From NCBI GenBank assembly GCA_017555105.1, contig JAFZHB010000018.1, positions 62,001 to 126,000 on the forward strand: a DNA stretch of 64,000 nucleotides. The letters are read 5' to 3'. A model generated the notes under the pieces. It did no database searches. It saw nothing but the letters and a program-made list of their open reading frames with translations, and had not been told where the DNA came from. How positions within the stretch are numbered: the first letter of the stretch is position 1; every line of letters begins with the position of its first letter. Positions 6,358 to 61,510 of the stretch are shown here, piece after piece. The position numbers and the translations under genes are program-made. The stretch is from Alistipes sp. (lineage in GTDB: Bacteria; Bacteroidota; Bacteroidia; Bacteroidales; Rikenellaceae).

Positions 6358-6365
6358 GCTGCGCT

Positions 6366-6400
6366 AAATTCAAAATTTAGAATTTAGAATTCAAAATTAA
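6366..6400. repeat. AT-rich dispersed repeat, copy A
   Basis: First of three copies of an AT-rich element (others at 33603-33635 and 35405-35433). The core is an 11-base unit AATTCAAAATT repeated directly around TAG, and it is also an imperfect palindrome. It starts 8 bases after the lysS stop. The rest of the lysS-tpiA spacer (6401-6568) has GC-rich inverted segments but no recognisable gene or promoter. Confidence 0.7.
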
Positions 6401-6568
6401 GCATTTTACGCCTCCACATTCGGCCGTGCTGATGAAGGGAGCGTAGCGACCAACCACCTGCCCAAGGCGGAGGTTTGGGGGTGGGAAAAATTTGCAATGG
6501 CGCCGAAGGCGACAAGAACGACCATCGGCAATGCTATAAGGATAATTTTTAATAAAACATTTAATATC

Positions 6569-7327
6569 ATGAGAAAGAAGATTGTAGCAGGTAACTGGAA
6601 GATGAATACGCTGCCCGCCGAGGGTGTTGAGCTGGCCAAGGGCGTTGTAGCTCAGCGCGGCGAGGTTTGCGAGTGTGTTAACTTCATCGTTTGTCCCCCG
6701 TTCACGCACCTGGCACAGGTAGCTGAGGCGTTGCAGGGCTCGACCGTAGAGCTGGGTGCACAGAACTGCGCTGCAGAGGCTAAGGGTGCCTACACGGGTG
6801 AGGTAGCCGCCTCGATGATCGCAGCCCTCGGTTGCAAGTATGTCATCCTCGGCCACTCGGAGCGCCGTCAGTACTACGGTGAGACCTCGGAGACGCTCAA
6901 CAAGAAGATGGAGCAGGTGTATGCCAACGGCCTGACGCCGATCTACTGCGTAGGTGAGAACCTCGACGAGCGCGAGGCCGGCAACCACTTCGCTGTCTGC
7001 AAGCAGCAGATCGAGGAGGTTGTATTCAACCTGACGGAGGAGCAGTTCAAGAACCTGGTGATCGCATACGAGCCTGTATGGGCTATCGGTACGGGTAAGA
7101 CCGCTACGGCCGAGCAGGCACAGGAGATTCACGCCTACATCCGCGAGGTACTCGCTTCGAAGTTCGGCGCAGCTGCTGCTGAGTGCCCGATCCTCTACGG
7201 TGGTTCGTGCAAGCCCTCGAACGCAGCCGAGATCTTCGCTAAGGAGGATGTTGACGGTGGTCTGATTGGTGGCGCAGCCCTGAAGGCTGAGGACTTCATC
7301 GGCATCGGCAAGGGCTTTATGGCCTAA
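6569..7327 (+). CDS. tpiA: triose-phosphate isomerase
   Basis: 252 residues, the usual family length, from ATG 6569. Interconverts dihydroxyacetone phosphate and glyceraldehyde 3-phosphate in glycolysis and gluconeogenesis. Catalytic features are complete: the N-terminal Lys in NWKMN, the electrophilic His in LGHSERR, the catalytic Glu and loop 6 in AYEPVWAIGTGKTA, and the phosphate-binding GGSCKPSN and GGLIGGAAL segments. A longer frame from 6497 lacks family similarity and was not used. A strong hairpin terminator follows 25 bases after the stop. Confidence 0.98.
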   Translation: MRKKIVAGNWKMNTLPAEGVELAKGVVAQRGEVCECVNFIVCPPFTHLAQVAEALQGSTVELGAQNCAAEAKGAYTGEVAASMIAALGCKYVILGHSERRQYYGETSETLNKKMEQVYANGLTPIYCVGENLDEREAGNHFAVCKQQIEEVVFNLTEEQFKNLVIAYEPVWAIGTGKTATAEQAQEIHAYIREVLASKFGAAAAECPILYGGSCKPSNAAEIFAKEDVDGGLIGGAALKAEDFIGIGKGFMA

Positions 7328-7352
7328 TGTCGTAGCGCATCAGCGCATCAAA

Positions 7353-48704: not shown

Positions 48705-48776
48705 GCCGAAATAGCTCAGCGGTAGAGCACTTCACTCGTAATGAAGGGGTCCCGAGTTCAAATCTCGGTTTCGGCT
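48705..48776 (+). tRNA. tRNA-Thr (anticodon CGT)
   Basis: 72 bases fold as a full cloverleaf. Acceptor GCCGAAA/TTTCGGC, D arm GCTC/GAGC, anticodon arm CTTCA-CTCGTAA-TGAAG with anticodon CGT, T arm CCGAG-TTCAAAT-CTCGG. CCA is not encoded. Decodes ACG. Its 3' part is the insertion site of the downstream element, and the inserted end restores the intact tRNA. Confidence 0.97.
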
Positions 48777-48777
48777 C
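48729..48777 (+). repeat. left attachment repeat (within tRNA-Thr)
   Basis: 49 bases identical to 60564-60612. Covers the anticodon arm to the 3' end of the tRNA plus one base. Sequences diverge immediately on both sides. Confidence 0.95.
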
Positions 48778-48785
48778 GAAAAATC

Positions 48786-48816
48786 AAGGAGTTACAGCAA
48801 TGTAACTCCTTTTTTG
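48786..48816 (+). terminator. tRNA-Thr terminator supplied by the element
   Basis: An 11-base-pair stem (48786-48796 with 48801-48811), loop GCAA, then T-run. It lies just inside the island. A different terminator (60617-60646) follows the right repeat and is probably the original tRNA terminator. Confidence 0.85.
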
Positions 48817-48930
48817 TTGGGTAAAAATCGACTCAAATAGGGGTAAAAAAGGCTCTTCTTAGGGAAATGTTGTACCTAAAGTTGTACCCAAAACACATCA
48901 CACATCCGCTTGCTGAAAGATTGCAAGTCA

Positions 48931-50142
48931 ATGAAAATCAAAGTTATTTTACGAACGCAAAAGAGAAACAAGGACGGACAATCGCCGTTGATGTTGCGTT
49001 TTAGTCACAATCGCACCACAAAAATGGTCTCTTTAGGGGTATCTGTGGAGGCCTGCTATTGGAATCAAGAGGGCGAAATGCTTTTGCCCGATTGTCCGAA
49101 TAGGGCTGCGTTACAGAGCCTGCTCGACAAACAGGTCTCCGCCTATCAGAAAAAGATGCAACGCCTCGAAGCGTTGGATATTCCCATTACATTCCAAACA
49201 CTCCTGGAATCGAAAGAACGCAATTGGGGGATGACTATTGAAGATGGTTTTGTGGCAGAAATCGAGCGACTGAATGCGCTTGGGAAAATTCAATCTGCCA
49301 ACAAACATCGTTATGCATTGAAAGTGCTGTCGGAGTTTCAATCAGTCCAAATGGCTCTGGAACAAATAGATCTGACTTATCTACAGAATTTAGAGCGTTT
49401 TTTTAGAGAACGCGGAAATCAATCCAACAGTATTGCAACTCGTTTTGCCATCTTAAAAGCAATCTATAATAAAGCGATTAAAAAGGGAAAATTTGCCGTT
49501 CAACAAAATCCGTTTAACCTTTTTCAGGTAGGTGCTTTGTGGACAACCACCCGCAAGCGAGCAATCGCCAAAGATGATGTGCGCAGACTAATAGAGCTTT
49601 CCATTCCATCAAATTCCCAAAATCATTATTCTCGCTTAGCCAGAGATCTTTTTGTCTTCTCCTACTTTACCGCAGGAATGAATTTTGGAGATATTGCACG
49701 ACTACGCTACCTAAACATTACGCAGGGAAAGGTGAGTTATTATCGGCATAAAACACAACGCCTTATTTCGTTGCAACTATCCCCCATTGCAACTGCAATT
49801 GTTGAAAAATATAGCCATGCGGAATATGACTCCGAAGACTATATATTCCCAATTCTTGATCGAACCAACCATAGGACACCGCAACAAGTATATGACCGTA
49901 TTCACAAGACACTCCGCAAGGTCAATTGTGCTTTGAGAATCTTGGGCAAGCAAATCGGCCTAGATTTTCCGCTCACGACCTATGTGGCCCGTCATACCTA
50001 TGCAACTGTTCTCAAACGATCGGGAGTAAGTGTTGCGTTAATCAGCGAATCTCTTGGACACTCCAACCTGTCAACAACTCAAATCTACCTCGACTCATTC
50101 GAAAATGAACAGATTAATGAGGCGATGCAACATTTGCTGTAA
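48931..50142 (+). CDS. int: tyrosine recombinase / integrase of the island
   Basis: 403 residues from ATG 48931 (a TTG at 48910 is less likely). An N-terminal arm-binding segment (KVILRTQKRNKDGQSPLMLRF) is followed by a SAM-like core-binding domain (about 105-200) and a catalytic domain. The catalytic residues are Arg in DIARLRYLN, Lys in YRHKTQRL, ARH in TTYVARHTYATVL, His in LGHSNLS and the nucleophile Tyr in TQIYLDSF. The first His of the HxxRH box is Tyr here. Directs site-specific integration at the tRNA-Thr end. No excisionase gene is visible nearby. Confidence 0.95.
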   Translation: MKIKVILRTQKRNKDGQSPLMLRFSHNRTTKMVSLGVSVEACYWNQEGEMLLPDCPNRAALQSLLDKQVSAYQKKMQRLEALDIPITFQTLLESKERNWGMTIEDGFVAEIERLNALGKIQSANKHRYALKVLSEFQSVQMALEQIDLTYLQNLERFFRERGNQSNSIATRFAILKAIYNKAIKKGKFAVQQNPFNLFQVGALWTTTRKRAIAKDDVRRLIELSIPSNSQNHYSRLARDLFVFSYFTAGMNFGDIARLRYLNITQGKVSYYRHKTQRLISLQLSPIATAIVEKYSHAEYDSEDYIFPILDRTNHRTPQQVYDRIHKTLRKVNCALRILGKQIGLDFPLTTYVARHTYATVLKRSGVSVALISESLGHSNLSTTQIYLDSFENEQINEAMQHLL

Positions 50143-50204
50143 GGACGGACTTTGCCGTAGGGGCTTTTTTAAGGCCCCTCGGTAAAGTTTGTCCTTTTTT
50201 TTTG
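50142..50204 (+). terminator. compound hairpin after int
   Basis: The outer arms GGAC.GACTTTgCCG and CGGtAAAGTttGTCC close around an inner GGGGC/GCCCC hairpin (50157-50179), followed by nine Ts. It resembles the hairpin at 60316-60366 in sequence and shape. Confidence 0.75.
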
Positions 50205-50212
50205 TACCTTTG
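50205..50212 (+). promoter_or_regulatory. putative -7 element for the 293-residue gene
   Basis: TACCTTTG, 20 bases before the ATG at 50233, directly after the int terminator. No TTG at 19-21 bases upstream, because the hairpin occupies that place. Confidence 0.5.
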
Positions 50213-50232
50213 ATTGCACCAACAATCCAGCT

Positions 50233-51114
50233 ATGGCGATCATTAAACTAACGCTTACATGGGATGAGTTTCAACAGATGAAGCAACTCACCTCGCAATT
50301 TTACGGAATAACTTCCAACCTCTCTTTTCTGGTCAATTATGAGGACTACAAAGGTTCTATCCCGCCTGAAACCGTGCAACTGTGGGCTTCAACAGAAATA
50401 GGAGAACTATTTGCAGAAACAACCATTTGCTGTTATTTCCAGAAAGCGGGAATTGATATGTGTGGTCAACAGTCCATACTCAGTGCGGTGCAAGGAGTAT
50501 ATATGTGTTACCTTGCAAAGCGCATCTTAGAAAAAGCCTATGCTGATGAAAATTCATTCAATTGGGATATCGATCACTTCTACCGAGATCGTATAGAAGA
50601 TGAATTGATACGATTGTATGGATTCTGTGTTTCGATGCAAAAAAAACAGCATACCGAACAACGGATTGAGTTGATTTCGCAAACGAGCGAGAAAATAGTG
50701 TTAAACAACTACGACAATTATCTGTGTCGGGTGCTCAAAAAATACTGCGAGGAACATGTGCCCAATGTTCAAATGAAATATGAAGCTCTTAAGAATAAGA
50801 AAGGAGGGCGTCCGCAAGACGATAAATTTATTACAGATGTGATGGTGGGGACCTATAAACTTCTGAAACAATTCTCACGGGAAACAACCGCCATTAGCAA
50901 TGGTATTTGCCGTTTTATTTATCGTCTCATACGCTGTTTTGATAGTTCCTTTTATCAATTTCAGGAGGAAAAAGTGGCTATCAAAAGTATCCGAACACGC
51001 CTAAATCATGCTTTGTCCATCGCCATAGAGCCGTCCTTGGATCTTTTCCAATCTTGTAGCCTTGAAGATTTAGCGGAAGTGCCACTAAAGAGATACGAAG
51101 ATTTATATTCATAA
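50233..51114 (+). CDS. uncharacterised island protein, 293 residues
   Basis: No domain recognised. Mostly helical, soluble, with no signal peptide or membrane segment. A short basic stretch KNKKGGRPQDDKFITDVM (about 193-210) recalls DNA-binding proteins in Bacteroidetes mobile elements, but that is weak. It follows the integrase with its own promoter and precedes the replication/recombination-like genes, so a regulatory or mobilisation role is possible. Confidence 0.8.
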   Translation: MAIIKLTLTWDEFQQMKQLTSQFYGITSNLSFLVNYEDYKGSIPPETVQLWASTEIGELFAETTICCYFQKAGIDMCGQQSILSAVQGVYMCYLAKRILEKAYADENSFNWDIDHFYRDRIEDELIRLYGFCVSMQKKQHTEQRIELISQTSEKIVLNNYDNYLCRVLKKYCEEHVPNVQMKYEALKNKKGGRPQDDKFITDVMVGTYKLLKQFSRETTAISNGICRFIYRLIRCFDSSFYQFQEEKVAIKSIRTRLNHALSIAIEPSLDLFQSCSLEDLAEVPLKRYEDLYS

Positions 51115-51178
51115 GTTCCCTCATTTTTGAAGAAAAACCAATAAAAATAAGCCTAAATTCTTCTCCTAAGCGGATTCG

Positions 51179-51206
51179 TTGTAGCCATTTTCTTGCCATA
51201 CTTTTG
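51179..51206 (+). promoter_or_regulatory. promoter of the helicase-like gene
   Basis: TTG (51179-51181), 17 bases, TACTTTTG (51199-51206). The spacing is slightly short. 20 bases to the ATG. Confidence 0.55.
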
Positions 51207-51226
51207 TGCCATATTTATAAATTAAT

Positions 51227-52993
51227 ATGGCAAAAGAAATCAAAATAGCCCAAGGACAATACTTGTCCGATGTACTGAAAGCGATTCCCAGTAATGTGTT
51301 GCTGAACAAGCAAATCACTGGATGTGGCGCAACGACACTTGAAATTGATGCCCCGAGGCACTCGATTATCATCGAGCCGAATGTGCCTGTGATACGAGGT
51401 AAGGCTGAAAAATATCCTCATGTGCTACCCGTATATGAGGCGATTTCAATGGAACAAGTGGTAGCGTATCTTCAAAAAGAGGGGTGGCGTAAGATTGTCA
51501 CAACGCCTGAAGGTTTTGGTAGCAAAGTCTGTCCCGCTCTAGAAAATGTATGGCCGAACTATCAACAAGATTTCTTCCTGCTCTTTGACGAATGCGAGAA
51601 GATCATCCAAGATGTTGGCTATCGAGGTGATATAGCTTTACCAATCGATGATTTCTTTGCCTTCTCAAAGAAGGCGATGGTTTCAGCAACCCCAATCATA
51701 CCAAGCGATCCTCGTTTTAGAGAGCAGGGCTTCTCGGTGGTGAAAATACAGCCGACATATGACTACAAACAACACCTTAACCTATGCTTTACGAATAACA
51801 CCGTGGAAGTGCTGGATCGCTTTATAGCTAAGCACAAAGAACACATCTGTGTCTTTATCAACTCTACGGATACTATCCTCCGTATCATCGAACGATTACA
51901 TTTGGAGGAGCGAAGCCAAGTATACTGTAGCGAGAAAAGTGTAAAAAAGTTGCGGGAGAAAGGCTATAATCGCTGTTACGATATCTTACAAGATCAATTT
52001 GCAGAGATTTGTTTCTTTACCAGCCGTTTCTATTCGGCTGTTGATATTGAGTTGCCCTATAAACCGTATGTTGTCATCTTGTCCGAGGTCATTGGTGCGC
52101 CTTTCTCAGCTATTGATCCTGCAACAGAGGTTGTGCAAGCAATCGGCCGATTTAGAAAGGGAACAGCTAGTATCTGCCACATCACCAATTTAGCCCCCAA
52201 AATGGCAGCCCTATCCAAAGCCGACTTAACAAAACGATTGGAAAGCCATGAAAAAGTGTATCAACAGATATATGCGTTGCCTGCTCAAAATCGCAATGAA
52301 ATTGAGGCAAAGAAGCAGGCTTTACGGGGTATGGATCACAAAATCTATATGACACCCCAGGGAAAGCGAAATTACTTCATGTGGGATAACGCCTTTGATG
52401 ATGCACGCATCAAGCAGTATTACCAAAATAAAGAGAAATTGGAAAGGGCTTACTCAAACGCTCCTTTCCATGTGAAAACCTATACACAGCGATACTACTT
52501 AACAGATGCGGATAGGACTAGTTTAGAGACGCCCACAAAAAGCAAAAGCGCTTTGTGGCGAGAAGTTATCCGAGTAGCCAGAAAGATTTACAAAAAGAAA
52601 GGCGGCCACGTAACAGAAGATGAGATCGTCAACATTATAGGGGAGAAACATCGGGATAAAATACACAGTTGTTTCCTAATCTCGGCGAAGGAGATTGAAC
52701 GGCTAAACTACAAAGAAAGTGCTATCAAAAAGGCCGTTCAGCAGAAAGAGCATCTTCTACGAGTCAAATCGGAATTATGGGATGATGTTCACCGCATCTT
52801 TCAACAAGGCAAGGTCGAAACCGTGGCACAAATCAACTCAACCATGAAGAAATTACTCGATCAACACTCGATAGAACCTTATGGGAGAGTCGACAAACGC
52901 TACATAGAACTATTCTTCAAAATTAGAGAGGGGAAACGCAAAGGAGCAAGATGTATCCAACTGCTCAACAAAAGGCGACATCCCAAACAATAA
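51227..52993 (+). CDS. SF2 helicase-like protein with altered Walker A motif
   Basis: 588 residues. The SF2 order is readable: motif I GCGATT at 32-37, motif II DECE at 120-123, motif III SAT at 152-154 and motif VI QAIGRFRKG at 303-311. Motif I has Ala35 where the catalytic Lys of GxGKT should be. After about 340 comes a helical C-terminal part rich in Lys and Glu. Presumably acts on the island's DNA in replication or mobilisation, but ATP hydrolysis is doubtful if the Lys is truly absent. A UUCG-loop terminator follows. Confidence 0.78.
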   Translation: MAKEIKIAQGQYLSDVLKAIPSNVLLNKQITGCGATTLEIDAPRHSIIIEPNVPVIRGKAEKYPHVLPVYEAISMEQVVAYLQKEGWRKIVTTPEGFGSKVCPALENVWPNYQQDFFLLFDECEKIIQDVGYRGDIALPIDDFFAFSKKAMVSATPIIPSDPRFREQGFSVVKIQPTYDYKQHLNLCFTNNTVEVLDRFIAKHKEHICVFINSTDTILRIIERLHLEERSQVYCSEKSVKKLREKGYNRCYDILQDQFAEICFFTSRFYSAVDIELPYKPYVVILSEVIGAPFSAIDPATEVVQAIGRFRKGTASICHITNLAPKMAALSKADLTKRLESHEKVYQQIYALPAQNRNEIEAKKQALRGMDHKIYMTPQGKRNYFMWDNAFDDARIKQYYQNKEKLERAYSNAPFHVKTYTQRYYLTDADRTSLETPTKSKSALWREVIRVARKIYKKKGGHVTEDEIVNIIGEKHRDKIHSCFLISAKEIERLNYKESAIKKAVQQKEHLLRVKSELWDDVHRIFQQGKVETVAQINSTMKKLLDQHSIEPYGRVDKRYIELFFKIREGKRKGARCIQLLNKRRHPKQ

Positions 52994-53001
52994 CCTTACA
53001 C

Positions 53002-53026
53002 AAGAGTCCTTCGGGACTCTTTTTTG
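53002..53026 (+). terminator. terminator after the helicase-like gene
   Basis: AAGAGTCC-TTCG-GGACTCTT stem (53002-53021) with a stable UUCG-type loop and a T-run. Confidence 0.92.
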
Positions 53027-53166
53027 CATTTAAGTGTATCACTTATTAGAGGAGATACTCTCCAAAACAACCCCCTCCCTGCTGTATATGGGGAAATACT
53101 TTTTACAACCTAAACATCCGACTTGTTCTTAGTGTAATTATTTAATAACCTTTAATTTGTAGAACT

Positions 53167-53874
53167 ATGCAACTAAGACAATCAATGCGCAGAGCAGCCA
53201 AAATGAGGTTGGCTCTTGCAGGGGCAAGCGGAAGTGGCAAGACCTATTCTTCGCTACTTATTGCCTATGGTATGACGGGCAACTGGTCGAGGATCGCCGT
53301 AATCGATTCCGAGAACTGCTCAGCAGATCTTTACGCCCACCTAGGACCTTATCAGGTGCTAACCTTGGAGAACTACGCACCTGAAACCTACATCGAGGCT
53401 ATCGGTATCTGTGAGCGTGCAGGTGCCGAGGTGATTATCATCGACAGCATCTCCCATTGTTGGGATTATCTGCTTGATTTCCACGCCAACCTCCAAGGCA
53501 ACTCGTTCGCCAATTGGGCAAAGGTTACGCCACGACAAAATGCCTTTATCCAGCGTATCCTGACCTCCTCGGCTCATGTTATCTGCACGATGCGCTCGAA
53601 GCAGGATTATGTCCTCTCGGACAAGAACGGCAAAATGGTGCCCGAGAAGGTTGGATTGAAAGCTGTGCAGCGCGATAATGTAGACTACGAATTTACCGCC
53701 GTGTTGGATATTGCCATGAATCACAAGGCAACAACCTCAAAAGATCGCACAGGTCTTTTTACGGGACATCCTGAGTTTACGATCACGCCTGCCGTCGGAC
53801 AAGCCATTCTGCGCTGGTGTAACCTCGCACAACCCTCGGTACAACCTCAAAACACGGAGTCTTATGCAGCCTAA
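53167..53874 (+). CDS. Sak4-like / AAA_24 RecA-fold ATPase
   Basis: 235 residues. Walker A GASGSGKT at 19-26; Walker B VIIIDS at 89-94, followed by SHCWD. The layout matches phage-type RecA-like NTPases (AAA_24, Sak4) that help single-strand annealing recombination. It overlaps the next gene by 11 bases, so the two are translated together. Higher in GC than the flanking island genes. Recombination or replication of the island is the likely role. Confidence 0.85.
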   Translation: MQLRQSMRRAAKMRLALAGASGSGKTYSSLLIAYGMTGNWSRIAVIDSENCSADLYAHLGPYQVLTLENYAPETYIEAIGICERAGAEVIIIDSISHCWDYLLDFHANLQGNSFANWAKVTPRQNAFIQRILTSSAHVICTMRSKQDYVLSDKNGKMVPEKVGLKAVQRDNVDYEFTAVLDIAMNHKATTSKDRTGLFTGHPEFTITPAVGQAILRWCNLAQPSVQPQNTESYAA

Positions 53875-54922
53875 CTATCAGCCTGCCATACCCGTGGCTT
53901 CGGGTCAGGATTTCGACGCTCGTTTTGCGTTGACTCCCTATGTCGAGGAGGCCTCGATTATCGAAGAACGACCTATTACACCCGTTATTCCTCTGGGTGT
54001 GCGTCATAGTCGCCACTTTATCGAAGCCAACACACACGCTGTCGATATTGCTCATCTGCGTAATGATTGTGTCGTGCCCGTCTTCAACAAGGATAATGAG
54101 GTGACCATCTCGCATCAGACCTTTATAGAGACGGTGCTGGGTGCAGCCTATCGGATGTTTCCGCGCGAGGTGTTTGATGCCCCAGACATTGTGGTATCTC
54201 ACATTATCAAAGGGCGTATTCCCGAGGCAATTCACAAGCCCGTGCATCAGTTGCTTGAATCGGATAAGACGATCTACTACGAGCGGATGGCCTTCTGCTT
54301 CGAGATACCCACCATTTATCAAGATGTGGCGGGTTGTCGGCTCAACCTCTCCATCGGTGGGGTGCGAGCCTATAACCACGAAAATCTCTATTCGAGAAAG
54401 ACGGCGGAAAAGTTCAAGGTGTTCATCGGCTTTAAGAATCTGGTCTGTTGCAACCTATGCGTTTCAACCGACGGGTTTCAGCGCGAACTGCGAGCAATGA
54501 GCGCCCAAGATCTCTTCGGGGCGACTTTGACCCTCTTTGAACACTACGATGCCGAACGACATGTGCGGCAGATGGCTCAGCTGCAAGAGCAGGGGCTGAC
54601 AGAGCATCAATTCGCCCAACTAATCGGAAAAACTCGTCTCTATCAGTATCTGCCTACTCCCGAACGGAAGCGATTGCCCGCCATGGAGTTTACCGATTGC
54701 CATATCAATGCGGTAGCTAAGGCGTATTACGGGGATGAACATTTTTCTCGTGATGCGAATTCCGAAATTGACCTTTGGAGGCTTTACAACCTCTTTACAG
54801 GGGCGAATAAATCGAGCTACATCGACACCTTCTTGGATCGTTCGCTCAATGCCACCGAACTCGCTTCGGGCATTGGGCGCGCCTTGCAGGGCGATGAGAC
54901 CTATCGGTGGTTTATCGAATAG
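53864..54922 (+). CDS. DUF3871-type mobile-element protein
   Basis: 352 residues. I recognise the pattern HFIEANT, LRNDCVVPVFNKDNEVTISHQTFI and the later YNLFTGANKSSYIDTFLDR as the DUF3871 family found in Bacteroidetes conjugative and phage-like elements, usually beside an AAA-ATPase like the one here. Function not established. The start overlaps the ATPase stop region. Confidence 0.8.
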   Translation: MQPNYQPAIPVASGQDFDARFALTPYVEEASIIEERPITPVIPLGVRHSRHFIEANTHAVDIAHLRNDCVVPVFNKDNEVTISHQTFIETVLGAAYRMFPREVFDAPDIVVSHIIKGRIPEAIHKPVHQLLESDKTIYYERMAFCFEIPTIYQDVAGCRLNLSIGGVRAYNHENLYSRKTAEKFKVFIGFKNLVCCNLCVSTDGFQRELRAMSAQDLFGATLTLFEHYDAERHVRQMAQLQEQGLTEHQFAQLIGKTRLYQYLPTPERKRLPAMEFTDCHINAVAKAYYGDEHFSRDANSEIDLWRLYNLFTGANKSSYIDTFLDRSLNATELASGIGRALQGDETYRWFIE

Positions 54923-54924
54923 TT

Positions 54925-54974
54925 TTCCCACCCCCTCCTGCTGCTTGACAAGTGGCACGGAGGGGGGCTAGGGA
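54925..54974. other. GC-rich hairpin after the DUF3871-type gene
   Basis: CCCCCTCC (54931-54938) pairs with GGAGGGGG (54959-54966), and TTCCC/GGGAA extend it. A T-run is missing. It could be a terminator or a processing site. Confidence 0.5.
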
Positions 54975-55240
54975 ATGCCACAACGACACCACGCATAAGC
55001 AAATGCAACCTGATATTCAGGACATTGCGTTTATATTAGCAATAGGATACAAATGATTGTATTTCAGCGCGGATTAGGTCGATCCGCCGACTATCCGTCT
55101 ATGTTTCAACGAGCGGGTTTGAGCAAGTTGTAATTAAGAAAAATAATATCCAATACGCTGCGCTATTGTAAAGTTTGCTTCTTTTGTAGACATTTGCTGT
55201 GGATTTTTGCAACAACCCCGAAAAAAGAGGTGTTGTCGTA
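54975..55240. other. non-coding stretch within the island
   Basis: No supported gene. A short minus-strand frame (55099-55281) has no recognisable content. Several small inverted repeats are present (for example GCGGATTAGGTCGATCCGC at 55069-55087). Confidence 0.6.
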
Positions 55241-55271
55241 TTGCGTTTTCGGGAAATGTCACTTAACTTTG
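55241..55271 (+). promoter_or_regulatory. consensus promoter inside the island
   Basis: TTG (55241-55243), 20 bases, TAACTTTG (55264-55271), a full match to the Bacteroidetes pattern. Transcription would start near 55278, about 240 bases before the first cargo gene. Confidence 0.75.
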
Positions 55272-55277
55272 TAGGTG

Positions 55278-55517
55278 ACATAAAAATTTACGGAAGCGTA
55301 AGTTTATTCTCGTAGAGAAATCTGGTAAATTTCAATGCGATGAGAATAGGCGACCGCATCTCCCGTCGTATCCGTCAGGATATAGGCGCGGGGTTGTTGC
55401 TTATTTTATCGCAGGGCATTACCAGAGCCTCTCTACAAATAAGCCATCAACCCTGCGCTTTCTTTTTACTACTAACCGTCTTCTGTGGGTTGAAAGAAGG
55501 GATAAATGTGTACAAAT
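55278..55517 (+). ncRNA. structured leader or small RNA ahead of the cargo genes
   Basis: Directly after the promoter come two stable hairpins: AATTTACG-GAAG-CGTAAGTT (about 55286-55305) and TTCTC-GTA-GAGAA (about 55307-55319). A further 190 bases follow without a convincing gene; a 74-residue frame from 55340 is weak. The arrangement suggests a regulatory leader for the cargo operon or a separate small RNA. I do not recognise an Rfam family. Confidence 0.45.
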
Positions 55518-56240
55518 ATGAAAAATGTGCTTTTGCTATTATCGATGCTATGTTTTGCATCTAGTTCTTTTGCGGAAAACTATGGCACATATACATGTGA
55601 TGGGTATAAATATAATGTAGATGATAAATTTCTCCAGGCCATTTCTAAATATTGTCCAGCTGCATCTATTGCCTTAAAACAAGGCCACAACTTGGTGTAT
55701 TATAGCGACTTGGAGGAGTTGCACGGGGTCCCAGATGAAGTGTGGATGTCGTTATATGGTCTTTCAAAAAAGCAATTAAGAAAATTTGATGGTCCACAAA
55801 TGATCTTTGAAAGTTCAAGACTTACTCAAGCGAGAATATCCATCAGTAAGTTGCGCTCTTTTTCTCCACCGCTACGGGTTCTAGACTTAACTGCTACTCG
55901 GTTTCTAGAGTATGGGATTGTAAATGACATAGTGAAATTGTTGCCAACGGCCGAGAATAAAATAATAAAACAACGCATTATAGTCTATTTAAATCTAAAA
56001 AAGTTGGATACCGTGACGGATGAAACATACGATGAAATATTGGTGTATAAGAATTTCAATGATGTAGACGACGCAGAGAGATACACAAATAGCATTAGAA
56101 AATATATAACTCTTGATTTTTGGGAAAGGTTGGAAACAGGGCGTCTTACAGCTGTTGATATATCTATATTAAATTCTTATGGAATCTTTCTGAGGCAAGA
56201 TTTATCCATGATGCATCTGGGTATTTCACTCAATAAATAG
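55518..56240 (+). CDS. exported cargo protein, 240 residues, function unknown
   Basis: Starts MKNVLLLLSMLCFASSSFA, a type I signal peptide with a likely cut after SFA. The mature part is hydrophilic with no domain I recognise. Strongly AT-rich codon use (roughly one third GC) contrasts with the host genes. First of three consecutive genes for exported products upstream of the MBL-fold gene. Confidence 0.78.
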   Translation: MKNVLLLLSMLCFASSSFAENYGTYTCDGYKYNVDDKFLQAISKYCPAASIALKQGHNLVYYSDLEELHGVPDEVWMSLYGLSKKQLRKFDGPQMIFESSRLTQARISISKLRSFSPPLRVLDLTATRFLEYGIVNDIVKLLPTAENKIIKQRIIVYLNLKKLDTVTDETYDEILVYKNFNDVDDAERYTNSIRKYITLDFWERLETGRLTAVDISILNSYGIFLRQDLSMMHLGISLNK

Positions 56241-56297
56241 GGTTATTGTAATATATAATACTTACATATTGACATATTGTTAGTTAATATCTATTCT

Positions 56298-56795
56298 ATG
56301 AAAAAGTTTTTACTATTGATTGCTATTTGTTTCTCGGGAGTTGTTGATGCTCAAATAGCTTATACTCCTTTTTTTCGGGATGAGGTGCGAGAAGATGTAC
56401 ATGTTCCCAACTTGGATTGGGAGATAGGAAGCTCGCGAAACAAGCAATTCGAAAGGCCAAGCTATAGTAATTCCCCCGAACCAAAAGGGACGCTAACTGT
56501 GGTAAAAAACTGTATACTTATTTCACCTAATAATACGCTCCTAGAAGCTTCTATCCATGTAAAGAAAACTTCTGAAGGTGCATTTAGTCTAGGAATACTA
56601 CATAGAGGGGTATTTATGTGGTTAGCACCTTCAGACATTCACTCGACTAAAGATCTAGACAACATATCTATAGAAGACCAAAAGCGGTGGCCTTATATCG
56701 CAGTATGGAAAGGAAGCGATTATTTAATTATCGGTTTCTTGCCGAATTTACAAACAACAGATGAACCTTTCTATGAATTTGAATCACATCGTTAA
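56298..56795 (+). CDS. exported cargo protein, 165 residues, function unknown
   Basis: From ATG 56298. Signal peptide about 1-18 (KKFLLLIAICFSGVVDAQ). The mature part is probably beta-rich (GTLTVVKNCILISPNNTLLEASIHVKK). No domain recognised. AT-rich. Ends 2 bases before the lipoprotein gene, so the two are co-transcribed and perhaps partners. Confidence 0.75.
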   Translation: MKKFLLLIAICFSGVVDAQIAYTPFFRDEVREDVHVPNLDWEIGSSRNKQFERPSYSNSPEPKGTLTVVKNCILISPNNTLLEASIHVKKTSEGAFSLGILHRGVFMWLAPSDIHSTKDLDNISIEDQKRWPYIAVWKGSDYLIIGFLPNLQTTDEPFYEFESHR

Positions 56796-56797
56796 TT

Positions 56798-57262
56798 ATG
56801 AAAAATTTATTTGCACTCTGTGGATTGTTGCTTCTATTAAATAGTTGCGATCTTCTCCCTTCCACTAAAAAAGAAAAATTAGAACAAGAGAAAAGAACTA
56901 AGATAGAGCAATTAAGAAAAGAATACAATAAAAAAGTGATTATAAGGGATCGAGAGTGGCTAACCCGACATGAATCGATAGCTAGAAATCTAGCAATACA
57001 ATTTACGCGGGATCAAGGATACTCTATACAGTCAATTAAGTTGAATGGACAAAGCGCAAGTGACATAGGCGCTAACGAAGTGGGGGTATTTTCGTATGAA
57101 CAGCCTGTGCCTATGGTCATAAAATCAGCTTATTATAATTTTAATATAACAACAGGAGACATTAGCAATAGAGGCGGTCTAATATACATTCAAATTAGAA
57201 TTTGTTATGCACAATCTGGGGCTCCGCAATGGACCGTTGACTATTTTCAAGCATTTTCGTAA
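56798..57262 (+). CDS. small lipoprotein, 154 residues
   Basis: Lipobox LNSC with Cys17 after a short hydrophobic leader. Residues 23-50 are Lys/Glu-rich and probably coiled-coil (KKEKLEQEKRTKIEQLRKEY). The remainder is mixed alpha/beta with no family I recognise. It is followed 8 bases later by the MBL-fold gene. Confidence 0.8.
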   Translation: MKNLFALCGLLLLLNSCDLLPSTKKEKLEQEKRTKIEQLRKEYNKKVIIRDREWLTRHESIARNLAIQFTRDQGYSIQSIKLNGQSASDIGANEVGVFSYEQPVPMVIKSAYYNFNITTGDISNRGGLIYIQIRICYAQSGAPQWTVDYFQAFS

Positions 57263-57270
57263 TAAATTAG

Positions 57271-58299
57271 ATGGATATGTCGAAAATGGTTCGCACCTTC
57301 CATCCCGTGGGTCATGGTGCATTTTATACGGAACGCTTTTATGATGACAATGGCGAGAATACCGCCAATGTCATCTTTGATTGCGGATGTTTCGAGGCTT
57401 GTAAGGCTGGTATCTCCTCGAAAGTGTTTGAGCAGCGAATTAAAACGACTATTCACAAGGAGTTCTGTAAAGACACAAAAATTGATGCGCTGTTTATTTC
57501 ACACTTTCACACTGATCACATCAATGGAATAGATGAATTGTTGAATTACTGCCAAGTAGCGAACTTATATATACCATGTTTGCAGGATGTCGTACTTGTC
57601 GAATCGTTTCTCTACAATAGTATCATAGAAGGTTCAGAAGATTGCAAATCTAATCAAGTCCTGCGAAAAATTGCAGAGCGGGAATATAATACAGAAATCG
57701 ATGACTCGGGTAGATCAATCATCCCAATAGGTGCATGGCTTTATCGTTCATATGGTCCAAGCATATCACACTCAAGAGCCACCCTGATTAAGCGACAGAT
57801 TCGCCAGCAATTATCAGCGCAGATTTTCATGCAGAATGGGGTTGATTTTTCAGAGTTAAGCAAGGCAATAGCTCGTATTGGTATTGATAAGTGTAAAACT
57901 ATGTATCAACAGATCTTTGGTAATAATCATAATTCATACTCAATGACTCTGTATTCAGGATTAAATTGTTTACGGGATTGTTTAGGTATGTGCCATACAG
58001 CATGTCTATATACAGGTGACTATAAAGCCAAGGGGAAGTTTGCGGAATTGGAGCGTTTCTATACCACATCATTAAAGCGAGTGTATATTCTTCAAGTCCC
58101 GCATCATGGTTCAGAGCATAACATCAATAATAAACTATATTCCCCCGAGCGATTGTGTGTCGTATCGGCAGGAGTAACCGATAAGTATGGCCATCCCGAT
58201 CAACAGACACTTGTGGCAATTCAAAATCAACGAGGAATCCCGATTATAGTGACTGAAGATCCGAAAACCAAGCAAGTATTTACCTACAATATATTATAA
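57271..58299 (+). CDS. ComEC-like metallo-beta-lactamase-fold hydrolase
   Basis: 342 residues, no signal peptide, so cytoplasmic. The metal site is complete: HFHTDH at 78-83, Asp250 in TGD, His279 in VPHHGS and His308 in YGHPD. The last two are typical of the ComEC-type MBL branch, which includes nucleases. An insertion of about 130 residues separates the HxHxDH motif from Asp250. AT-rich cargo gene. It might cleave nucleic acid or a nucleotide signal, as MBL proteins do in several anti-phage systems, but the substrate is not shown. Confidence 0.88.
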   Translation: MDMSKMVRTFHPVGHGAFYTERFYDDNGENTANVIFDCGCFEACKAGISSKVFEQRIKTTIHKEFCKDTKIDALFISHFHTDHINGIDELLNYCQVANLYIPCLQDVVLVESFLYNSIIEGSEDCKSNQVLRKIAEREYNTEIDDSGRSIIPIGAWLYRSYGPSISHSRATLIKRQIRQQLSAQIFMQNGVDFSELSKAIARIGIDKCKTMYQQIFGNNHNSYSMTLYSGLNCLRDCLGMCHTACLYTGDYKAKGKFAELERFYTTSLKRVYILQVPHHGSEHNINNKLYSPERLCVVSAGVTDKYGHPDQQTLVAIQNQRGIPIIVTEDPKTKQVFTYNIL

Positions 58300-58373
58300 T
58301 TATTATAGCAACATACTTCTTGAACAAGAATTAAAATTTGAGGTGGTTATCATGCTAATCTAATAATCAATAT

Positions 58374-58922
58374 ATGAAAAAACTACTTCTCTCTTTCCTA
58401 GCCCTTGTTGTGTTGGGCGTTGGTGCCTATTTGTGGGCTAATTGGATCTCGGTTGACGAGATTGATGAACTAATCGCAGGCAACTACGAATTGGTTTTAT
58501 GTGATATATCTTTGGGCGATCAGGCTGCCGACACAATCATCATCAACCGTGCTCCTGCTCGCGGTGCAAAAATCCAACTGCATGTCTCGGAGGAAGGCAA
58601 GCTGACGATAACGACTGACGAGGAGTATCCCGTAATACAAAGTCTTGCTACGCACGGCTGGTGGTCAGTTTACACGCTGCGCGAAAAGTGGTTTACATGG
58701 CGACATTGCCTCTCAAAGCGCTACGCGTCGGAGGCTATGAAGGAGACCAGCGGAAATGCTCGTAATGTGGTTCTTACGAAGTCGGGTGGATACAGCAAAG
58801 CATCGCTTGGTATTTATTTCCACCGCGTGTTTGTTGCGGACGATGTCATCACTCTCGGGGTTGATATAGACGACCCAACATCCGATCAGATTTACTGGCA
58901 ACTGCTCTTTTACAAAAGATAG
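58374..58922 (+). CDS. single-pass membrane or exported protein, 182 residues
   Basis: N-terminal hydrophobic segment (about 4-24) with Lys at the start; no lipobox. The following domain is mostly beta by appearance (NYELVLCDISLG, KIQLHVSEEGKLTITTDEEYPV). Not recognised. GC content is higher than in the preceding cargo genes, so it may belong to a different acquisition. Confidence 0.72.
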   Translation: MKKLLLSFLALVVLGVGAYLWANWISVDEIDELIAGNYELVLCDISLGDQAADTIIINRAPARGAKIQLHVSEEGKLTITTDEEYPVIQSLATHGWWSVYTLREKWFTWRHCLSKRYASEAMKETSGNARNVVLTKSGGYSKASLGIYFHRVFVADDVITLGVDIDDPTSDQIYWQLLFYKR

Positions 58923-59013
58923 AAAGGGTAAGAGCCGATAAACAAAACCGTTTGATATGCTTGAAATTTGGCGAAATTTTGTCATTAAGAGTTATTGAAA
59001 GGATAACCTGAAA

Positions 59014-59400
59014 GTGCTTTGGATTCTGTGTAAGGTGCGCGCCTATACGCTGTTCCGAAAGTCACTCAGGGTCTCTTTCAAGTGTGTCAGAGGGGCGTGG
59101 TACTGCGATATCCCAGGCTGGCCGCAGATCTATTTCCCCAATACGGTGATGGTGGGCGATGCCTCGTTGCTGATTCAGGAACAAGCGGGCGAGGGGGACT
59201 ATGTCACCTTTCAGGTCGCATTTGGCAACAAGTACAAGGCGCACCGTGGGTGTGTGACACTATCGCAAAAGCATAGCAGTCTGACGGGTGGTGCGTACTA
59301 CTATGGAGGGGAGCGATTCTCGGATGTATGGCTCTGCCCTGTCACGCTGTTTGTATTGGGACAATATCCAAACTTTATCTATTTCAAACGGATTGAGTGA
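59014..59400 (+). CDS. small uncharacterised protein, 128 residues
   Basis: The only available starts are GTG 59014 and nearby non-ATG codons; an in-frame stop at 58996 blocks an earlier start. Aromatic-rich and probably beta (GAWYCDIPGWPQIYF, GAYYYGGERFSDVWL). No recognised family, though the pattern recalls small uncharacterised proteins in Bacteroidetes accessory regions. It may be N-terminally truncated. Confidence 0.55.
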   Translation: MLWILCKVRAYTLFRKSLRVSFKCVRGAWYCDIPGWPQIYFPNTVMVGDASLLIQEQAGEGDYVTFQVAFGNKYKAHRGCVTLSQKHSSLTGGAYYYGGERFSDVWLCPVTLFVLGQYPNFIYFKRIE

Positions 59401-59439
59401 TTCGATAATGCTGCATGCAAAATAGTGTAAATATCAGTC

Positions 59440-60312
59440 ATGAAACGCATCTTATTTCCGCTTCTGTTCTTGCTTATTTTTGCAGGGTGTGGTGGTAAGC
59501 GCCCTACAACACAAGAATCCGCTGTGGAGGGAATTCAGATTAAGTTGCCCAAAAAGCAGGAGTTTAAGGGACAGCCGAAAGCATTAAATCTCGAACCACT
59601 ACCGCCGATTGATTCGTTATTGTTGCAAAAAATTGCAGCGGATAGTGCGATAACAATCTGCTACACGAAACCCGTAAGAGGCTACACGGTACGAGGCTGG
59701 GGCATCCCAAACGAGATCTTTGAAGAGTCCTGGGATGTGGTACTCCATTTCAAAGGGAATGAGCAGGACTTTATGGTGAATGGTGGTCGAGTCTATGATT
59801 TGGCGGATTCGAGCCAACGGCAAGTGATTGCAAGCTATGAGGAGCGGTATCTACAAGGTGCTTTATGCGCACCCTTCGATCTTTTCTTCTTTGCCGATTT
59901 GGATTTTGATGGAGTTGAGGAGCTGATTACGGATCGAGAGCCTCATGCGGGCAGTCAGAGAAGTCTACCAGCCTTTACCGAAATATATACCTTTCGGAAT
60001 GGCTATCCACAACGCGCTACAGCATTGTTCCGCGCCAAAAACACGCTCTTTTCCGCCATCGAACCATATTACTTTATGGTCCATCCTGAGCGCATGGAGC
60101 TTTATCAATACCGTGATGGCGGTGCTTTGGGCGGCGGATGGGAGGTCTATGCCTATGAGCAGGCTAACTATCGCTATGATCACTATGTACATTGGGAGGA
60201 GGTGATCCCCACCGATTCGATTGCTGTAGAGATCCGCAATCCACAAAATCAGCCTCGCAGATCCTTCATCACGGATAAAAAGACCTTCGATAAAGAGCGT
60301 TGGACATACTAA
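59440..60312 (+). CDS. lipoprotein with EF-hand-like DxDxDG loop, 290 residues
   Basis: Lipobox FAGC with Cys17. A soluble domain follows, with a calcium-loop-like DLDFDGVEE (Asp153, Asp155, Asp157, Gly158, Glu160), as in surface proteins with repeat-in-beta-propeller loops. No other domain recognised. Last gene before the right end; its stop is 3 bases before the second compound hairpin. Confidence 0.8.
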   Translation: MKRILFPLLFLLIFAGCGGKRPTTQESAVEGIQIKLPKKQEFKGQPKALNLEPLPPIDSLLLQKIAADSAITICYTKPVRGYTVRGWGIPNEIFEESWDVVLHFKGNEQDFMVNGGRVYDLADSSQRQVIASYEERYLQGALCAPFDLFFFADLDFDGVEELITDREPHAGSQRSLPAFTEIYTFRNGYPQRATALFRAKNTLFSAIEPYYFMVHPERMELYQYRDGGALGGGWEVYAYEQANYRYDHYVHWEEVIPTDSIAVEIRNPQNQPRRSFITDKKTFDKERWTY

Positions 60313-60315
60313 AAA

Positions 60316-60366
60316 GACAAACTTTCCCCAAGGGTCTTATTAAAGCCCTTTGGGAAAAGTCTGTCC
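60316..60366. other. compound hairpin at the right end of the island
   Basis: GACAAACTTTCCCCAAGGG (60316-60334) pairs imperfectly with CCCTTTGGGAAAAGTCTGTC (60346-60365). It resembles the hairpin after int at 50142-50196. No T-run follows, so it may not be a simple terminator. Confidence 0.7.
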
Positions 60367-60563
60367 ATGACGAAAATTCATACCCAAAACTTCCAACTTC
60401 TATTGAGCCATCGAATAATCGTTCGGTGGATTTGTTACCTATTGTTTCACTAGTAAGCAGATATGTGGAGTGATTGTTGGACCCAATGTTGTACCAACGG
60501 GAAAAAGATAGCCGATTTTTATTTGTAATCCCTCGATTTTTAATCAATCACGAATGAGATGCA

Positions 60564-60612
60564 ACTTCACTCGTAATGAAGGGGTCCCGAGTTCAAATCT
60601 CGGTTTCGGCTC
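60564..60612 (+). repeat. right attachment repeat (tRNA-Thr fragment)
   Basis: Exact 49-base copy of 48729-48777. The preceding bases do not resemble the tRNA 5' half, so this is an att site and not a second tRNA. Confidence 0.95.
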
Positions 60613-60616
60613 AAAA

Positions 60617-60651
60617 ACAAGCGATAACCAACAGGTTATCGCTTGTTTTGT
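60617..60651 (+). terminator. presumed original tRNA-Thr terminator
   Basis: Perfect 13-base-pair stem (60617-60629 with 60634-60646), loop AACA, then T-rich sequence, directly after the right att repeat. Confidence 0.85.
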
Positions 60652-60663
60652 TTATACGCCAGA

Positions 60664-60678
60664 TGAACTCGGGACCCC
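60664..60678 (-). repeat. inverted copy of a 15-base tRNA-Thr segment
   Basis: Reverse complement GGGGTCCCGAGTTCA is identical to 60581-60595 in the att repeat. It could pair with that site across the terminator, or it is a remnant of an older insertion. Confidence 0.7.
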
Positions 60679-60709
60679 GAAGCCTCTCATATGACCCACT
60701 AGGTGCATA

Positions 60710-60852: not shown

Positions 60853-60963
60853 TCAAGCTTCCTCAAATTTTCCATTCTCACACATGTGCTTAAAGCATCG
60901 TTCTGCATACTCATAATGGGATAGATACTCTTTTGCATTGTCGTACATACCTCGATTTATCAT
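60853..60963 (-). pseudogene. possible C-terminal remnant of a lost minus-strand gene
   Basis: 36 codons on the minus strand reading YDNAKEYLSHYEYAERCFKH and ending ENGKFEEA, helical and TPR-like in character. It has a terminator downstream but nothing upstream that would make a full gene, because the recombinase fragment begins at 61000 on the other strand. Confidence 0.35.
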
Positions 60964-60999
60964 ATAATTGGCAATCAAAACAAAGAGCAATCAGACACA

Positions 61000-61437
61000 A
61001 TGTCGGTATTGAAGAAACAGAAGAGTGAGTTAGAGAATAAGTTGAAAAAATGTAAGGTCAGTCGTGGTATGGGCGATATTGATGAAGATGTTTACACCAC
61101 CACGGTTGAGGTTATCCAAGAAAAACTCGCTAAAATTGAGGTAGAAATCGCAAAGGTCAAAAGAAATTTATCGAACCTTACCTCAACGGCAGACGAAGTG
61201 GTCGCAACTTGTTGTACATTAGGATGTTTGTGGAGTAGTTCGGAATTAGAATTGAGTCAAAAAATCCAAAATTTACTCTTTCCGAGCGGAATTTTGTGGG
61301 ATAAGGAAATTGGCAATTATCGAACCATAGACGAGAATAAAGCTCTTTCTATAATATCTAAATTATCAGATAGTTACAAAAATAAAAAAGAGGAAAATTC
61401 TCTCGAAAATTCCTCTTTGGTAAATTTGTGCGGATAA
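61000..61437 (+). pseudogene. C-terminal fragment of a large serine recombinase
   Basis: 145 residues. A coiled-coil segment (LKKQKSELENKLKKC) is followed by TLGCLWSSSELELSQKIQNL and LFPSGILWDKEIGNYRT, the typical C-terminal end of Bacteroidetes large serine recombinases. The catalytic N-terminal domain and zinc ribbon are missing, so the fragment is not functional. Its stop overlaps the 3' end of tRNA-Leu on the other strand. It marks an older, mostly deleted element next to the present island. Confidence 0.7.
61380..61418 (-). terminator. tRNA-Leu terminator
   Basis: Minus strand: AAAGAGGAA (61418-61410) pairs with TTCCTCTTT (61395-61387), followed by T-rich bases. It lies inside the recombinase fragment's open frame. 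Confidence 0.7.
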
Positions 61438-61510
61438 AGGGACTCGAACCCCCACGCCGTGAGGCAACAGATCCTAAGTCTGTCGTGGCTACCAATTACA
61501 CCATATCCGC
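61429..61510 (-). tRNA. tRNA-Leu (anticodon TAG)
   Basis: 82 bases including the discriminator A. Acceptor GCGGATA/TATCCGC, anticodon arm ACAGA-CTTAGGA-TCTGT with anticodon TAG, a long variable arm typical of Leu, and T arm with GTTCGAGTC. Decodes CUA and related codons. Confidence 0.95.

Follow-up and report, generated by a model that had tools for sequence, protein, structure and literature searches.

An integrative island at a tRNA-Thr gene of Alistipes sp. with a Sak4-DUF3871 core, recurrent hairpins and a structured leader RNA ahead of its cargo genes

The window analysed here is a stretch of 64,000 nucleotides of Alistipes sp. (assembly GCA_017555105.1, contig JAFZHB010000018.1, positions 62,001 to 126,000; all coordinates below are those of the window unless stated otherwise), and its subject is an island of 11,835 bp at a tRNA-Thr(CGT) gene (48705..48777, plus strand; ARAGORN and Rfam tRNA). 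Repeat comparison places a 49-nt attL core at 48729..48777, covering the 3' half of the tRNA gene, and its exact copy attR at 60564..60612 (both plus strand), so that the 3' half of this integration target is supplied by the island; stretching the match to 54 nt brings in one mismatch. The ten repeated 40-mers shown for the window all derive from this pair, and for a 361-nt query around the tRNA its own genome gave, apart from the query site, attR (98% identity over 54 nt) and, more weakly, three sites of 75–84%. Behind the reconstituted tRNA lies an island-borne, terminator-like hairpin with a T-run (48788..48815, plus strand), and the native 3' flank of the tRNA, displaced by the insertion, is found outside the island at 60613..60686 (plus strand), as similar DNA lies directly 3' of the tRNA in the related genomes G089 and G008 and of the right tRNA copy in G020. 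The GC content is 0.429 in the island and 0.591 and 0.581 in the flanks; low GC (0.368) runs on to 61427, beyond the att-bounded island. All 12 main open reading frames (ORFs) point away from the tRNA, and those listed on the minus strand either overlap main ones or are short.

The two window flanks were joined by script and compared with related genomes. In G089 (88% over 264 nt) and in G008 (83% over 270 nt) the joint aligns with uninterrupted DNA that spans the junction, while G020 carries a different island of 12,853 bp at the same tRNA, the right tRNA copy of which matches the joint over 161 nt (93%). The original prediction, made from the letters of the window, had described exact 49-base att repeats, an integrase just inside the left end and genes reading away from the tRNA, and had proposed a search for empty sites; all of this was borne out, the reading direction for the 12 main ORFs, with uninterrupted tRNA-Thr sites in G089 and G008 and a differently filled one in G020. 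With these att repeats, an integrase inside one end and uninterrupted sites in relatives, the island is an integrative element that uses a tRNA att site. An integrase at least 44% identical to that of the window occurs within about 5 kb of the left-flank gene in 14 of 151 genomes of the genus, with tRNA-Thr(CGT) itself confirmed in eight; five of the 14 (G000, the genome of the window, and G039, G002, G107 and G118) also have DUF3871 at that site.

The integrase gene (48910..50142, plus strand, with an in-frame ATG at 48931) encodes a tyrosine recombinase with Arm-DNA-bind_5, SAM_5 and Phage_integrase domains in Pfam. By motif comparison, two direct repeats of GTTGTACC, 12 bp apart (48869 and 48881, together 48869..48888, plus strand), lie ahead of it, and another copy lies near the right end (60488..60495, plus strand); the window holds six copies over both strands, including one further in-island copy, inverted, at 53838. 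We consider these repeats putative integrase arm sites, in keeping with the Arm-DNA-bind_5 domain. Several other att-bounded islands have a motif of their own common to both ends with similar spacing, e.g. of GTAAACC type in L015, L027 and L039, and in L013 and L028 the end-shared motif was not clear-cut. At the Bacteroides finegoldii locus L006, two neighbouring minus-strand tyrosine integrase genes (4881-7341 and 7626 of that locus) stand beside a 54-residue remnant that shares 75% identity with the C-terminal end of the integrase of the window, an apparent integrase replacement.

Four further genes precede the cargo, all on the plus strand. The first, orf2 (50233..51114), is fast-evolving, belongs to no family and in several relatives stands beside a helicase-like gene, which in the window encodes a protein of 588 residues (51227..52993). 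It is followed by a gene for a Sak4-like AAA_24 protein (53167..53874; phrog_1366 with E 1e-72 and Sak4 phrog_124 with E 9e-6) and by one for a DUF3871 protein (53864..54922; PF12987, E 3e-138). Of the gene content originally predicted, the Sak4-like and DUF3871 genes were thus confirmed by profile searches; the helicase-like label is weak for the window protein, its best Pfam match being DUF5855 with E 0.12, and depends on the relatives. In a Prevotella relative a VapE gene takes the orf2/helicase place between the integrase gene and Sak4. A profile search of the DUF3871 alignment against PDB sequences gave nothing below E 0.28, and in the literature searched DUF3871 was named in one paper, which concerns an iron response. 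DUF932 (PF06067), considered for a possible resemblance to DUF3871, was dropped as a relative, PF06067 being present in 0 of 41 genomes of the family.

The island of G039 is 93.9% identical to that of the window over 6,766 nt from the tRNA to 55500, whereas the host DNA of the two genomes is only 76% identical on the left (665 nt) and 79–80% to the right of the neighbouring tRNA-Leu. The contrast between a core of about 94% identity and flanks of 76–80% in this other species shows that the island core has moved between species. Homology ends at 55500, just ahead of the first cargo gene, and similarity resumes in parts of the right end (75–97%); among island relatives, the core is kept and the cargo is swapped. 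A scan of genome contigs for DUF3871 gave 39 loci, in Alistipes, other Rikenellaceae, Prevotella, Prevotellaceae, Dysgonomonas, Bacteroides, Flavobacterium, Tenacibaculum and further Bacteroidales; this sample overlaps with that of the genus genomes, several records being common to both. Sak4 lies just upstream in 29 of the 39 loci, several of which end at contig ends, a related integrase lies upstream in 18, and in 14 that integrase is beside a tRNA gene. DUF3871 was also found in 6 of 198 genomes of the order. The order of genes in the family is an integrase, orf2 with helicase-like or other genes (VapE in Prevotella), Sak4, DUF3871 and cargo. Ten att-bounded islands, including that of the window, measure 10.0–15.9 kb and are inserted in genes for tRNA-Thr(CGT), tRNA-Thr(GGT), tRNA-Arg, tRNA-Met, tRNA-Gly and tRNA-Pro. 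In searches at the level of titles and the beginnings of abstracts, the literature on satellites and islands in Bacteroidota or Alistipes did not describe this family, and the names searched had no match in the portion of PMC8632094 that was covered.

Further island-like loci were encountered alongside these. At 4422-14621 of L283 (G146, contig C2) an island lies between two tRNA-Thr(CGT) copies; its integrase and several of its cargo proteins are 95–100% identical to those of the G063 island (L198, contig C3), a second case of a shared island. On contig C14 of G086 (L172, L180), several DUF3871 copies and two related integrases, one of them near tRNA-Phe, are possibly tandem islands. An island-like region at 5170-18305 of L280 (G076, contig C92) lies between two tRNA-Val copies and has an integrase, orf2, a helicase-like gene and six copies of the hairpin R1 described next, with no match to DUF3871.

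The hairpin R1 is 52 nt long, of the form GGACAGAC...GTTTGTCC. One terminator-like copy follows the integrase stop codon directly and is itself followed by a T-run (50143..50194, plus strand), and a second copy, reversed, stands two bases behind the last cargo gene (60315..60366, minus strand); both were located with a model of R1. RNAalifold on 23 sequences shows double compensatory changes in 8 of 18 pairs. Searches whose filters discard weak matches detected R1 in 22 of the 151 genus genomes. In the stretches taken from each of these, it accompanies island genes or a related integrase, or is at most about 410 nt from a tRNA gene; no copy was found in the att-bounded islands L027, L028 and L085. 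Among 22 copies placed relative to ORFs, near-duplicate islands being counted, 16 lie 0–26 nt behind a stop codon and six 68–230 nt behind one, and many, not all, have a T-run. R1 as a general Alistipes terminator was rejected, because in the genome of the window it occurs in only two places, both in the island, and because in 50 flank and neighbour loci (614 kb) its sole site is the island's own right end. Its ends do not fit an integron attC site. The most plausible view of the hairpins is that they are terminators with a common origin, placed at the ends of modules, and they may contribute to the exchange of such modules.

Between DUF3871 and the cargo lie about 300 nt of noncoding DNA with a conservation of about 70–75% among islands at different tRNA genes. 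In sequence and alignment, TAACTTTG (55264..55271, plus strand) matches TAnnTTTG, which we take to be the Bacteroides -7 promoter motif. It is followed by a structured leader RNA of about 180 nt, which in its rod form was delimited by the covariation model R2 (55289..55466, plus strand) and folds in the window with a z-score of -5.8. Folding and covariation also place a competing terminator hairpin at 55385..55467 (plus strand; -33.6 kcal/mol), which runs into UUUCUUUUU. The R2 model was built from 13 sequences and has 47 matches at E<=1e-6 in 46 loci, these loci having been picked because they match; in the resulting alignment, which is fitted to the model and in which 12 of the 47 rows are copies of training sequences, 97.0% of the pair cells of the rod are standard. 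Double changes occur in 36 of its 58 pairs, against 18.8 +/- 2.1 in shuffled alignments (0 of 500), and slid controls reach at most 18 pairs and 50%. Covariation of the rod is very strong. The alternative helix, formed by GGCGYGGGG..YTG and CAGC.CC.RCGC, continues into the U-tract and cannot coexist with rod helices 1 and 7. Of its cells, 89.0% are paired, against 86.7% in shuffled and 37–54% in slid alignments, and 16 are double-changed against 6.1 in shuffles (0 of 500); six pairs with double changes compare with 3.7 (23 of 500), and further pair types are not above shuffles (202 of 500), so that support for the alternative helix is weaker than that for the rod. In the window the rod has -73.3 kcal/mol and the full RNA with the hairpin forced -62.8. 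A conserved structure is thus combined with a mutually exclusive terminator, as in riboswitches and attenuators, and we infer from folding and covariation that the leader RNA may act as a transcription attenuator.

The leader RNA forms a wide multi-copy family in Bacteroidales: 140 of the 151 genus genomes have it, as do 31 of the 119 from the order and eight of the ten att-bounded islands, all except L027 and L028. The genome of the window has six copies by model R2, of which only that at C16:117289-117466 is in the island; the others are at C5:41034-41238, C17:27556-27777, C11:12304-12524, C3:3660-3877 and C2:184157-184372. Copies outside islands precede genes that often start, as judged by eye, like those of secreted proteins or lipoproteins. 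An island-specific packaging or replication signal was rejected as an explanation, since the leader RNA is in 140 of 151 genomes against 25 of 151 for DUF3871, and since the outside copies precede genes. Five copies had no match in Rfam (E up to 1 for the window copy, and up to 0.5 for those of L006, L059, L090 and L033), and literature searches did not find it; a published set of 3,161 candidate RNAs (PMC8040213), which extends to Bacteroidetes and Alistipes, may include it.

Seven cargo ORFs follow on the plus strand, as given by the ORF list. They encode a protein of 244 residues with a signal-peptide-like start (55506..56240), one of 172 residues (56277..56795), a lipoprotein-like protein of 154 residues with relatives of 50–52% identity in two other islands (56798..57262), an MBL-fold protein similar to LmuA/Avs1a-type defence hydrolases in Pfam, defence and family profiles (57271..58299), with this likeness in its C-terminal part, a protein of 182 residues (58374..58922), one of 128 residues that is 92% identical in L009 (59014..59400), and a lipoprotein-like protein of 290 residues (59440..60312). 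The window cargo consists chiefly of signal-peptide-like or lipoprotein-like proteins, judged by eye and assigned to no family, plus one MBL-fold protein. In the relatives, an interior set was compiled of 108 of 166 proteins of at least 60 residues from 14 islands or partial islands, with integrase, Sak4 and DUF3871 excluded. Its defence matches are AbiLi, AriA, SoFic, LmuA-like proteins, type II restriction-modification and NACHT, and its surface or secreted matches are fimbrillin-like proteins, BspA LRR, SusD, an M64 peptidase and a lipocalin, among the families listed: 25 of 30 in Pfam for each set, 25 of 57 and 25 of 46 in PADLOC, and, in PHROGs, 25 of 51 for the second set and all 25 for the other.

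No relaxase, coupling protein, mating-pore ATPase, terminase, portal or capsid was found with Pfam and PHROGs in the 12 window ORFs, nor among the families listed for the interior proteins. An interior protein of L198 matches Terminase_4 below the cut-off (E 0.0035; 18.2 bits against 24.7), and the MBL-fold protein of the window matches a PHROG annotated as 'tail' (phrog_7043), best at residues 61–101, i.e. in its hydrolase domain; both carry little weight. The absence of relaxase, coupling protein, terminase and capsid genes, part of the original prediction, holds to this extent. Its further proposal was a helper-dependent mobilizable element or a phage-satellite-like island. Since relatives have uninterrupted or differently filled sites and profile searches recognised no transfer families, an integrative element in need of a helper is supported, and it may take either of these two forms.

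On the whole, the 11,835-bp island is probably an integrated element with a tyrosine recombinase which depends on a helper for transfer and combines a replication-like core with cargo that the leader RNA would control. In such an element, the integrase, bound at the GTTGTACC arm sites, would recombine the 49-bp cores, and integration would restore the 3' half of the tRNA and add a new terminator. After excision, orf2 and the helicase-like protein, with Sak4 and DUF3871, would copy the 11.8-kb circle and anneal or repair it, and a phage or conjugative helper would then carry it. Behind the core, the leader RNA would switch between an antiterminator rod and the terminator hairpin and thereby control the exchangeable cargo operon, and the R1 hairpins would end transcription units and offer short homologies for the exchange of modules. 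Several observations weigh against this interpretation. Neither an excised circle nor an attP junction was seen, a pattern of right end plus att core having 0 exact matches in viral_contigs, and no replication origin was identified in the island. The B. finegoldii locus L006 (NZ_OY725960), deposited as a circular plasmid, was not accepted as evidence that a circle exists: its 127-bp ends are found again in further records, apparently contigs of the same assembly, so that it is probably a contig and not a plasmid. The functions given to orf2 and DUF3871 are guesses. In 10 of the 39 DUF3871 loci no Sak4 was seen, DUF3871 was found in 25 of 151 genus genomes (24 above the curated cut-off), and L085 and L198, two of the ten att-bounded islands, are same-tRNA islands with related integrases and without DUF3871. 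The term core is therefore relative.

The identity of the helper separates the more specific explanations. A phage satellite, excised and replicated on induction of a helper prophage or phage and packaged in its particles, is a real though doubtful possibility. Relatives of Sak4 occur in 408 of 50,697 phage records and in 39 of 72,556 plasmid records, a compact element with an integrase and replication or recombination genes, including a VapE-like gene between the integrase and Sak4 of the Prevotella relative, is what a satellite would look like, and elements of 10–16 kb fit the 6–18 kb stated for satellites in the part of PMC11389934 covered. Relatives moreover carry the defence families AbiLi, AriA, SoFic and restriction-modification, and a 4.25-kb Sak4-DUF3871 fragment obtained from human faeces, which shares about 94% identity with a locus of B. 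congonensis, was deposited as 'Bacteriophage sp.'; this fragment may be contaminating bacterial DNA. Phage bias of Sak4, VapE in one relative, size and defence cargo lean to a satellite. Against it, no packaging gene is established among the PHROGs families listed, the sole Terminase_4 match being that of another island and below the cut-off, and viral_contigs, searched for exact motifs or close relatives, has no relative of R1, the leader-RNA motif, the helicase or the integrase and has DUF3871 in only four contigs, two of which are apparently the same loci as in isolate genomes.

An integrative mobilizable element that has only an oriT and relies for relaxase and mating pore on an integrative and conjugative element (ICE) in the same cell seems unlikely. 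No oriT was seen, with no search for oriT made, and a Sak4-DUF3871 core is to our knowledge no known mobilization module, which we count against this explanation. It would accord with the lack of a recognised relaxase; such oriT-only elements exist (PMC11389934, in part), and ICEs are diverse in Bacteroidetes according to sections of PMC6907783. The lack of any identified helper-specific gene or signal would suit a passive island, moved by generalized transduction, natural uptake or chromosomal transfer and then integrated by homologous or integrase-mediated recombination; the precision of the att ends in ten elements, at tRNA genes of six types, arm-like repeats that vary with the integrase and a conserved core speak for an actively maintained element and make this rather improbable. 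Least expected is a remnant of an ICE or prophage that has lost its transfer genes. A reductive origin is a general model for such elements in the part of PMC11389934 covered, but one compact order of genes is met again and again, in many species and in several genera, with no transfer genes recognised, and the window ORFs are open.

The helper-dependent element preferred here resembles phage satellites (P4-like, PICI) in its size, tRNA/att integration, integrase at one end, phage-type recombination gene and replication-like genes, and in the defence cargo of its relatives. It differs from them in having a Sak4-DUF3871 core, no established packaging or helper-exploitation gene and no recognised divergent repressor in the window island; some relatives have minus-strand genes behind the integrase. 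With NBU-type integrative mobilizable elements of Bacteroidales it shares a tyrosine integrase, a tRNA target and an expected dependence on a helper, and it differs in lacking a recognised relaxase and in having a recombination- and replication-like core rather than a mobilization module. Gut-bacterial islands left unclassified in the part of PMC6907783 covered are likewise larger than 10 kb, with an integrase and without complete transfer modules, whereas here a family is defined with common core, hairpins and leader RNA. The FopS/GibS small RNAs of Bacteroides are, like the leader RNA, multi-copy Bacteroidales RNAs with their own promoter and a link to surface-protein genes; FopS is about 65–70 nt and acts on target mRNAs (PMC11697453, in part), in contrast to a rod of about 180 nt with a competing terminator that precedes genes, and identity with FopS was rejected on length.

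We tentatively propose, with rather less than even confidence, that the leader RNA is an uncatalogued class of large two-state regulatory RNA, distributed over Bacteroidales in many paralogous copies and serving mobile elements as plug-in control of exchangeable surface and defence cargo, and that the island family is a new Sak4-DUF3871 satellite class of Bacteroidales with its own hairpins. For genomic islands of gut Bacteroidales, the mechanism of transfer is often unassigned. In this family the members are defined, their ends mapped, their core shared and uninterrupted sites known, so that the identity of the helper is directly testable. Since its cargo includes anti-phage families and surface proteins, the family probably spreads traits that affect both resistance to phages and contact with the host. 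Should the two-state behaviour of the leader RNA prove true, this RNA would add a regulatory layer for Bacteroidales accessory genes that is missing from the catalogue searched.

Some minor features were noted around the tRNA sites. To the right of the island, an open frame at 60925-61437 adjoins the tRNA-Leu(TAG) gene (61428-61510, minus strand; ARAGORN). It has no NCBIfam match, and a longer version of 254 residues is found in G034 at its tRNA-Leu (L084, 6805-7569); the product presumably resembles the C-terminal part of a large serine recombinase, and the frame is probably a remnant of another element. At 60665-60686 of the window, downstream of the tRNA terminator, part of the T-arm sequence of the tRNA (GAACTCGGGACCCCGAAG or close variants) occurs in inverted orientation, as it does behind tRNA-Thr in L186–L188. 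The 3' end of the tRNA in G008 (L187) belongs to a tandemly repeated block of about 163 bp.

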